From NCBI GenBank assembly GCA_919902045.1, contig CAKKSP010000046.1, positions 1 through 34,751 on the forward strand: DNA of 34,751 nucleotides, in the 5' to 3' direction. Shown in pieces: positions 109 through 34,612 of the stretch. The stretch comes from Omnitrophica bacterium GWA2_41_15 (lineage in GTDB: Bacteria; Omnitrophota; Gorgyraeia; Gygaellales; Profunditerraquicolaceae). The notes beneath the pieces were generated by a model. The model had not been told where the DNA came from, did no database searches, and saw only the letters and a list, made by a program, of their open reading frames with translations. The first letter of the stretch is position 1. Each line of letters begins with the position of its first letter. Made by a program: the position numbers and the translations under genes.

Positions 109-117
109 ATCCCGAAG

Positions 118-224
118 CTAGCGCAGAGGCGCACACCAGCGCATCCTATAAAGCTGGGTGCTGCGAAATAAATTATCGAGCCGTCTGGACAAAGGCCGAC
201 GGTGAAATAATTTATGAGCGCTTA
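118..224 (+). promoter_or_regulatory. Candidate multibranch structured leader RNA upstream of ptsN
   Basis: Hand-folded: P1 AGCGC(120-124)/GCGCT(218-222); P2 CACCAGC(134-140)/GCTGGGTG(153-160); P3 ATAAATTAT(168-176)/ATAATTTAT(207-215); P3b CCGTC(181-185)/GACGG(198-202). Single copy, so no covariation test. Confidence 0.5.
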
Positions 225-4756: not shown

Positions 4757-4801
4757 ACACCCGACACAAGCGGAATATGTGTCGGTGTTGTCTAACTGAC
4801 A
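4757..4801 (+). promoter_or_regulatory. Two-hairpin RNA element, metK copy
   Basis: ACACC C GACACA-AGCGGAATA-TGTGTC GGTGT TGTC-TAACT-GACA; ends 19 nt before ATG 4821. Confidence 0.8.
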
Positions 4802-13454: not shown

Positions 13455-13499
13455 ACACCCGGCGCAATCTGATTGTGCGCCGGTGTTGTCTATCTGACA
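13455..13499 (+). promoter_or_regulatory. Two-hairpin RNA element, ilvC copy
   Basis: ACACC C GGCGCA-ATCTGATTG-TGCGCC GGTGT TGTC-TATCT-GACA; abuts SD AAGGAGG of ilvC. Confidence 0.8.
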
Positions 13500-29172: not shown

Positions 29173-29217
29173 ACACCCAGCGCAAGCGGAATATGCGCTG
29201 GTGTTGCCTAACTGGCA
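29173..29217 (+). promoter_or_regulatory. Two-hairpin RNA element, porD copy
   Basis: ACACC C AGCGCA-AGCGGAATA-TGCGCT GGTGT TGCC-TAACT-GGCA; ends 1 nt before ATG 29219. Confidence 0.8.
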
Positions 29218-29218
29218 A

Positions 29219-29482
29219 ATGTTCGGACCTTTGATTTGTAAACCAGGCTCAAGTAAGAATAACAAGACCGGTTCTTGGCGGGTTGAGGTAAAACCTAAAT
29301 TCCTGCAAAAGAATTGTATAGCTTGTAAGATGTGTTTAGTTATCTGCCCTGAAGCCTGTATAACCGGAAACGAAAAAAATACCTATATCTGCGATTATCA
29401 GTATTGCAAGGGTTGTGGTAACTGCGCGGCAATCTGCCCTAAGCAGGATATTGTGATGATCAAAGAAGATTCTAAGGAATAA
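29219..29482 (+). CDS. porD: Pyruvate/2-oxoacid:ferredoxin oxidoreductase delta subunit (2x 4Fe-4S)
   Basis: CIACKMCLVICPEAC and CKGCGNCAAICP. ATG 29219 preferred over the GTG 29201 in the track, which lies inside the RNA element. Confidence 0.88.
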   Translation: MFGPLICKPGSSKNNKTGSWRVEVKPKFLQKNCIACKMCLVICPEACITGNEKNTYICDYQYCKGCGNCAAICPKQDIVMIKEDSKE

Positions 29483-31524: not shown

Positions 31525-31556
31525 ATAATTGTATAAAAGTGCGCTAGGCGCAATCG

Positions 31557-31601
31557 GCGCCCGGCGTTAATTGGAATTACGCCGGCATGCGCTAACTGCG
31601 C
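31557..31601 (+). promoter_or_regulatory. Two-hairpin RNA element, ferritin cluster copy 1 (divergent)
   Basis: GCGCC C GGCGT-TAATTGGAATT-ACGCC GGCAT GCGC-TAACT-GCGC; same 45-nt geometry, weaker outer stem. Confidence 0.65.
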
Positions 31602-31604
31602 AAA

Positions 31605-31628
31605 TGTGCGCTGGTGTTGCTAACTGTC
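31605..31628 (+). promoter_or_regulatory. Two-hairpin RNA element, ferritin cluster copy 2 (truncated)
   Basis: TGTGCGCTGGTGTTGCTAACTGTC matches only the 3' part of the porD copy. Confidence 0.55.
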
Positions 31629-31673
31629 ACACCCGCTGCAAGCGGAATATGCAGCGGTGTGTGCTAACTGCAC
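31629..31673 (+). promoter_or_regulatory. Two-hairpin RNA element, ferritin cluster copy 3
   Basis: ACACC C GCTGCA-AGCGGAATA-TGCAGC GGTGT GTGC-TAACT-GCAC; abuts SD AAGGGGG. Confidence 0.8.
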
Positions 31674-31684
31674 AAGGGGGTAAT

Positions 31685-32164
31685 ATGGGAAAACAAGGAC
31701 GTGCTATTGCGGAAGTCAGCCTGAAAGAGCTTATTAAGGATCTTCAGAAAGCATATGCTGATGAGTGGCTAGCTTTTTATCTTTATTGGTATATGGCCCA
31801 GACAGTTTCCGGCCGCGCTTATGAAGACATGAAAGAGATGCTTGAAAAAGTTGCTAAAGATGAACTTGAGCATGCAAAAGAATTAGCGGATTTGATTACA
31901 AAATTAGGGGATGTTCCTCCGGCAAATCCTATGGAGCTTGAAAAGAATGCCAACGCACCTTATGTATTACCGCCGAAGAATACCGCGGATATCAATCGTA
32001 TTATTCGCATAGTTACCGAGGCAGAAGCGCAGGCAATCGAAGTTTATCATAAGATAGCTAAAAAGACTCAAGGTAAGGATCATGTAACATATCAGTTAAT
32101 TACGCATATCCTCTCGGAAGAAGTGTCGCATGAGGAGATGTTTGAGAATTTACAGGAACGTTAA
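31685..32164 (+). CDS. Ferritin-like diiron protein (bacterioferritin/rubrerythrin-like)
   Basis: YADEWLAFYLYWYMAQ...AKDELEHAKELADLI and TEAEAQAIEVYHKI...EEVSHEEMF (E/ExxH patterns). Start ATG 31685; track ORF 31571 includes the RNA elements. Confidence 0.85.
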   Translation: MGKQGRAIAEVSLKELIKDLQKAYADEWLAFYLYWYMAQTVSGRAYEDMKEMLEKVAKDELEHAKELADLITKLGDVPPANPMELEKNANAPYVLPPKNTADINRIIRIVTEAEAQAIEVYHKIAKKTQGKDHVTYQLITHILSEEVSHEEMFENLQER

Positions 32165-34067: not shown

Positions 34068-34331
34068 ATGACTATCACAAAACTTAAGGCAAAGAATCAG
34101 GTAACTATCCCAAGTATTATTATGAAGCGGCTGCGTTTAAAGCCAAATGAGCTTTTTGCAGTGGATGTTGAGGAAAATTTTATTAAGCTTATACCTGTCA
34201 AAGTAGAACCGAAATACACCGCAGAAGAGCTTAAAGCAGTAGACAAGATTGTGGCGCAGGAAAAATCCAGAGGAAAAACAGTCAAAGCCGGTAAGGATTT
34301 CTCGCATTATCTCAAGAAGGTTTCTGGTTAA
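34068..34331 (+). CDS. AbrB/MazE-type (SpoVT-AbrB fold) antitoxin
   Basis: MTITKLKAKNQVTIPSIIMKRLRLKPNELFAVDVEENFIKLIPV; SD GGAGG. Track ORF 34020 starts upstream in the promoter. Confidence 0.87.
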   Translation: MTITKLKAKNQVTIPSIIMKRLRLKPNELFAVDVEENFIKLIPVKVEPKYTAEELKAVDKIVAQEKSRGKTVKAGKDFSHYLKKVSG

Positions 34332-34612
34332 TGAAAAAGATCGTTATACTGTCTTCTTTTGAGCGCTCTCTTAAGAAGCTTTCCCCGCAAGATAAGAAAC
34401 AAACTGCCGAAAGTTTAGAATCTTTTAACTCCATGTTAGTTTCCGGCTCTTTCCCCGCAGGATTAGGTTTCAAAAAGATTAACCATGATAAATACGAACT
34501 ACGCGTTAATATCCGCCTGCGCGTAATTATTAAGTCAGAAGGGGATACTTATTATTTAGTTTTAGTCGGCAGCCATGATGATGTAAGAAGGTATTTAAGA
34601 GATTATAGATAA
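34331..34612 (+). CDS. RelE/ParE-superfamily toxin
   Basis: 93 aa; SFERSLKKLSPQDKKQ...LRVNIRLRVIIKSEGDTYYLVLVGSHDDVRRYL; 1-nt overlap with antitoxin. Confidence 0.82.
   Translation: MKKIVILSSFERSLKKLSPQDKKQTAESLESFNSMLVSGSFPAGLGFKKINHDKYELRVNIRLRVIIKSEGDTYYLVLVGSHDDVRRYLRDYR

Follow-up and report, generated by a model that had tools for sequence, protein, structure and literature searches.

Organization of the leader of the ferritin-like gene

The window analysed here is a stretch of 34,751 nucleotides of Omnitrophica bacterium GWA2_41_15, a metagenome-derived genome (G000) of 1.14 Mb in 51 contigs that is 82% complete. Towards its end, the interval 31539-31680, between porB and a gene with a ferritin-like/rubrerythrin domain, holds every piece that a first-pass annotation of the sequence had named there: two full copies of a short element (its copies 1 and 3), a 3'-half 'remnant', and a GGCGC-AATCG-GCGCC palindrome at 31547-31561. 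The window as a whole carries five clear copies, one each before metK, ilvC and porD and two before the ferritin-like gene (Table 1). The porD copy (29173-29221) has no Shine-Dalgarno sequence (SD) between its second hairpin and the ATG, unlike nearly all other copies. At 34074-34612 there is a two-gene unit resembling a toxin-antitoxin pair, whose first gene is MazE-like, just under the Pfam cut-off, and whose second has no Pfam match.

Table 1. Copies of the two-hairpin repeat in the window, with the elements of the ferritin-like leader.
Feature	Position	Strand	Remarks
Divergent copy	116..164	-	37.6 bits; 3' of tRNA gene, antisense to the tRNA
Simple copy before metK (SAM synthetase, ATG ~4815)	4757..4801	+	followed by GGGGAGG
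Simple copy before ilvC (ketol-acid reductoisomerase)	13455..13499	+	followed by AAGGAGG
Simple copy before porD	29173..29217	+	H2 ends 1 nt from ATG 29219
Outer copy, 5' half	31539..31557	+	GTGCGCTA-GGCGCAATCGG; GGCGCAATCGG = 31547-31557
Inner copy (copy 1 of the first-pass annotation)	31558..31602	+	covariance model R2, 54.9 bits
Outer copy, 3' half (the 24-nt 'remnant')	within 31603..31629	+	AATGTGCGCTGGTGT + H2 TTGCTAACTGTCA
Simple intact copy (copy 3 of the first-pass annotation)	31629..31673	+	covariance model R2, 64.3 bits
SD AAGGGGG	31674..31680	+	directly after H2 of copy 3; start codon ATG 31685
Ferritin-like/rubrerythrin-domain gene	31685..32164	+	PF00210 1.2e-25; PF02915

Structure and distribution of the repeat

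The repeat unit is non-coding, about 45-48 nt long, and consists of two hairpins, H1 (~32 nt) and H2 (~13 nt). H1 has the form ACA-C-CNNNNNN ... NNNNNNG-TGT, with a bulged C and with GGAAU within the apical loop; H2 has four base pairs around a 5-nt loop, and the SD comes next. When 55 copies of the family, taken from a wide range of genera, are aligned, 97.4% of the cells are paired; the covariation score is 0.516, as compared with 0.174 for shuffles and at most 0.099 for slid partners, and two-sided changes are found in 12 of the 14 pairs (122 such cells vs 25 when shuffled). The loops, on the other hand, are variable across the family, with H2 loops such as TAACT, TTTCT and TTGT, and with 8-12 nt in the H1 loop. 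An Rfam search of the window returned a tRNA as sole match, the two-hairpin repeat having none, and no papers on Omnitrophota repeats were found in the literature available to us.

Approximately 41 copies are present in the 1.14-Mb genome (covariance model R2, E < 1e-5), and the repeat occurs in 32 of 58 near genomes and in 43 of 193 genomes sampled from the phylum, 26 of the 43 belonging to the same family. A DNA pattern of the core, which includes AAGGAG and is thus uninformative on SD adjacency, recovered at least 80 loci, all of them Omnitrophota among the matches listed; so far the repeat family has been found only in this phylum. The same pattern gave no match in IMG/VR, and a phage origin was discarded on this ground.

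A second subgroup of the repeat, GCACCCAGCTTTATAGGATGCGCTGGTG...GCGCTAGCTKCGGGAT, with conserved flanks, is represented by the divergent copy of the window (116-164, minus strand) and by copies at loci L041 (1318-1367), L043 (1462-1512) and L040 (1342-1392); in the window and in L041 it lies antisense just 3' of tRNA genes, and the longer repeat surrounding the L043 copy has no Rfam match. Two copies, at L001 (C12:19604) and L019 (C48:7344), are enclosed by longer inverted sequences, GGGGCACT...AGTGTCCC (GACACTT...AAGTGTC), which may represent a further family of repeats in the genome. In contig C2 of this genome an element copy has a run of N close by (L030, just before position 1501).

A copy nested within a copy

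The inner copy of the ferritin-like leader folds into an H1 at 31559-31586, with GGAAT in the loop, and an H2 at 31588-31602 (TGCGC TAACT GCGCA). It is flanked by segments that can pair with each other, GGCGCA (31547-31552) with TGCGCT (31607-31612). The leader can be written as GCGCTAGGCGCAATCGG / CGCCC...GCGCA / AATGTGCGCTGGTGTTGCTAACTGTCA, followed by the simple copy that abuts the SD. In this simple copy H1 spans 31629-31660, with the bulged C at 31632, and H2 spans 31661-31673; it abuts the preceding element on one side and adjoins the SD on the other. The first-pass annotation regarded the 24-nt segment as a truncated copy akin to that of porD, and the palindrome as an additional hairpin in competition with copy 1. 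The likeness to porD holds, with 17 of 18 positions of the segment agreeing with the porD 3' half; its H2 is short by one base. Homology with the rplL leader and with two other loci of the same arrangement, however, shows that palindrome and remnant together make up a single outer copy, its 5' and 3' halves being separated by copy 1, which sits in the outer apical loop between ATCGG and AATG; the layout is shared with rplL, C11:38726 and C12:79.

Four such nested composites were recognized in this genome (ferritin-like gene, rplL, C11:38726 and C12:79), and others in G147, G121 and G214. C11:38726 has the layout ACACCCAGCGCAATCGG / TAGCCCGGCGCCTATAGGAATTACGCCGGCATGCGCTTTTGCGCA / AATGTGCGCTGGTGTTGTCTAATTGACA, a complete outer copy with a full inner copy in its apical loop, in which the outer copy is intact across the insert (ACACCCAGCGCAATCGG / insert / AATGTGCGCTGGTGTTGTC); C12:79 is built alike but differs in its outer loop, and both retain an intact ACACC foot. 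The rplL leader (C20:1969) reads ACGCTAGGCGCAATCGG / CGCCC...GCGCA / AATGTGCGCCGGTGTTGACTAACTGTCA, and here ACGCTA stands in place of the usual ACACC foot, as GCGCTA does before the ferritin-like gene. This common alteration suggests that copying involved the composite as a unit. Composites are also found at tuf of G121 and at smc of G214, while smc of G147, in another genus, has a composite, a simple copy and the SD in the layout of the ferritin-like leader. In a general test of complementary flanks around copies the count was 17 against 12.7 for shuffles, and only the composites have such flanks. The minimum-energy fold of the ferritin-like leader takes a shifted register; since all arms contain GCGC, folding leaves the register undecided and the assignment of the outer copy rests on homology.

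An array of this kind might also be produced by misassembly, given that the genome is a metagenome assembly (82% complete, 51 contigs) in which repeats are readily collapsed or joined. We consider an artefact at this locus highly improbable: the three copies are not identical in sequence, rplL carries the same composite, and a composite with a simple copy occurs at smc of another genus.

Filled and empty sites

How the repeats are distributed among close relatives can be seen in genus g13, whose ten species carry from 2 to 51 copies. At tuf, the site is filled in four of the ten species (G123, G190, G172 and, with a nested copy, G121) and empty in the other six (G134, G147, G188, G012, G181, G214). 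As an example, the empty site of G134 reads AAAAAAACAGGAGGATAAGAAATG and the filled site of G123 reads AAAAAAACA-CACCCC...GGGGCA-AGGAGGATAAGAAATG, which places the insertion, in sense orientation, immediately 5' of an AGGAGG that the empty site also contains. The rpsH and smc sites of this genus are also patchy, with sets of species that differ from gene to gene. Elements at orthologous sites have a mean identity of 0.77, as compared with 0.905 between an element and the most similar other copy of its own genome, and the ortholog is the closer of the two in only 5 of 43 pairs; copies therefore spread within genomes.

No target duplication could be detected: among 157 copies there is no excess of 2-4 nt flank matches, and the filled/empty pair at tuf shows none, with at most 1-3 nt of microhomology. 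The target site duplication that marks a classical MITE, moved by a DDE transposase, is thus missing in these data.

Among 29 other genomes of the family in which the leader of the ferritin-like gene was read, only G012 and G013 have the element there, as a single copy in each; the array of composite and simple copy is private to the genome of the window. A single copy without remnant in sister genomes is what the first-pass annotation had named as evidence against its reading. For the array this is indeed the state of the relatives, but we take it as supporting mobility rather than as a refutation. The proposal that the element can duplicate or recombine is borne out by the species-specific filled and empty sites, by the nested and tandem copies, and by the similarity of copies within a genome.

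Placement at the Shine-Dalgarno sequence

Of 171 copies, 127 lie in sense orientation ahead of an SD and start codon, and 2 are antisense. The SD starts -1 to +2 nt from H2 in 114 of the 127 sense copies, a figure to be read with the caveat that the covariance models were built mostly from SD-adjacent copies and may slightly favour these. Many copies adjoin the stop codon of the preceding gene. The AAGGGGG of the ferritin-like gene is taken as the host's own SD because the empty sites of other genes keep theirs.

The genes that follow the repeat are unrelated, and include ribosomal proteins, tuf, smc, acpP, metK, ilvC, yqeY and phoU, among others. This mixture bears directly on the first-pass suggestion of tandem riboswitches, and on a link with iron or ferredoxin. 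A riboswitch sensing an iron- or redox-related ligand, in tandem or with dose dependence, would agree with the strong covariation, with the position in the 5' UTR, and with the presence of several Fe-S or ferritin genes nearby in the window. The same element, however, precedes metK, ilvC, rplL, tuf, rpsH, smc and acpP, so that no coherent pathway emerges; the loops are variable, unlike an aptamer core; copies also occur antisense inside the arms of riboswitches; and there is no Rfam match. Gene content and loop variability led us to reject this reading, which we judge very unlikely. Specificity for iron or ferredoxin was likewise rejected, the element being absent from the ferritin-like leader in 27 of 29 relatives read.

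In several Omnitrophota genera, FMN riboswitches contain the element within their variable arm, in antisense orientation (L052, L057, L058, L061, L063, L064), the copy of L058 being a tandem duplicate. Locus L064 also starts with a group I intron fragment (1-184). L030, from the genome of the window, resembles the element-bearing FMN riboswitches, with no Rfam call there.

A different possibility is that the repeat is a functional cis-acting 5' leader, selected as an RBS insulator, a translation enhancer or a protein-binding site, which spreads because its carriers are favoured, mobility only supplying the copies. Most copies are indeed in sense orientation with precise SD spacing, and the same genes recur across genera: acpP, metK, yqeY, phoU and rplL, as well as genes whose products start with MAYGGPDRRK / MSKEYAGPEKRK and with MAExGYCVKCK. 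Comparing the 31 downstream genes of this genome with the 60 of g13, six are in common against approximately 1.4-2.1 expected (P 0.004-0.02), which may reflect either a function retained at particular genes or a common preference for strong SDs. In predicted folds of 122 leaders the probability that the SD is unpaired is 0.558 with the native element, 0.552 with the element deleted and 0.469 with the element shuffled; in 93 of 122 cases the SD is more open beside the native element than beside a shuffled insert (p 3e-9). The SD is therefore no more open than if the element were deleted, and on these models the plainest reading is that of a self-contained insert that spares translation, with an active role, for example as insulator or enhancer, being possible. 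Against selection as a leader it can also be seen that most orthologs have no element, including tuf and rpsH within one genus and the ferritin-like gene in 27 of 29 relatives, that no pathway is common to the downstream genes, and that a target preference for SD-like sites predicts the same picture. Overall, we regard a selected leader function as rather unlikely.

Search for a mobilizing enzyme

REP elements mobilized by a RAYT (Y1 transposase) were considered because the repeats are palindromic and without target duplication, and because Y1 genes are present in 43 of 58 relatives, with seven in this genome. REPs and REPINs with RAYTs are palindromes tagged with GTAG or CGTC (PMC3733652, PMC3116915). 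In the Omnitrophota repeat such a tag lies next to either end in only 5 of 171 copies. The 33 Y1/RAYT loci of other genomes, searched over ~1.5 kb on each side, gave one weak 16-bit match only, the seven genes of this genome having been compared with the element positions by coordinates only; several multi-copy genomes, such as G020 and G030, have no Y1 gene in their (incomplete) assemblies. Furthermore, REPs are mostly downstream of genes (PMC3733652), whereas the repeats described here are upstream, at the SD. With neither tags nor linkage to Y1 genes found, membership of the REP/RAYT system was rejected, and mobilization of this kind is improbable.

Comparison with known repeats

The two-hairpin repeat is a non-coding mobile repeat, neither a riboswitch nor an iron control element. 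In form it comes nearest to the mitochondrial double hairpin element, which we use as a working analogy and not as a statement of descent. The double hairpin and repetitive hairpin-forming elements of fungal and sponge mitochondria (PMC2800124) are likewise short multi-copy hairpin repeats, including double-hairpin forms, whose numbers vary in close relatives and which occur in tandem arrays and in variable parts of structured RNAs; two adjacent stem-conserved hairpins, multiple copies and a patchy presence in close relatives are all found here. The likeness drawn here is one of form. The present repeat resides in an Omnitrophota chromosome, has a sense-biased placement at the SD edge, and nests in itself, always at one point in the apical loop. 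REPs and REPINs resemble it as small palindromic, non-coding, multi-copy and putatively mobile repeats; the present unit differs from them in having two unequal hairpins, an upstream position at the SD, and neither a GTAG/CGTC tag nor RAYT linkage. Correia, BOX, RUP, ERIC and RU elements (PMC2229807, PMC3049150) are also non-autonomous, mostly intergenic and hairpin-capable small repeats, whereas the unit described here is much shorter, lies at the SD edge and has no target duplication that we could find. In Beggiatoaceae, TAACTGA repeats occur a few nt upstream of the start codon in unrelated genes, those for ribosomal proteins among them (PMC4679880). Those are 7-nt direct repeats, while TAACT is here the H2 loop in the genome of the window; since the H2 loop has many other sequences across the family, the likeness is probably due to chance.

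Origin of the array and implications

On the evidence of these comparisons, the ferritin-like leader has probably received a mobile two-hairpin repeat of 45-48 nt at least twice, and any regulation of the gene would be at most a side effect. An ancestral composite of outer and inner copy, as before rplL, would have come first, and a fresh simple copy would then have been placed between the composite and the SD; the gene has no same-genus relative to compare, and the order is thus inferred. Nesting could also have arisen by recombination between copies instead of insertion. The absence of target duplication suggests that movement proceeds through single-stranded hairpin DNA copied by an unlinked enzyme. 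The persistence of the copies may be due to the self-folding of their hairpins, by which the SD stays as accessible as in a leader that lacks them. More tentatively, the insertion machinery might recognize the sense-strand SD edge, either as ssDNA directly or via RNA, so that the repeat would install itself as a self-folding leader on tens of genes, with its own apical loop as a second recurrent target giving rise to the nested copies.

Bacterial small mobile repeats are commonly regarded as residents of spacer DNA, in many cases on the downstream side of genes. The Omnitrophota repeat has moved into the sites of translation initiation of core genes such as tuf, rpsH, rplL, metK and smc, at tens of genes in one genome, with a single orientation and near-fixed SD spacing. 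The filled and empty sites of sister species make both the effect on expression and the rule of insertion directly testable, and the nested copies provide a record of the order of events.
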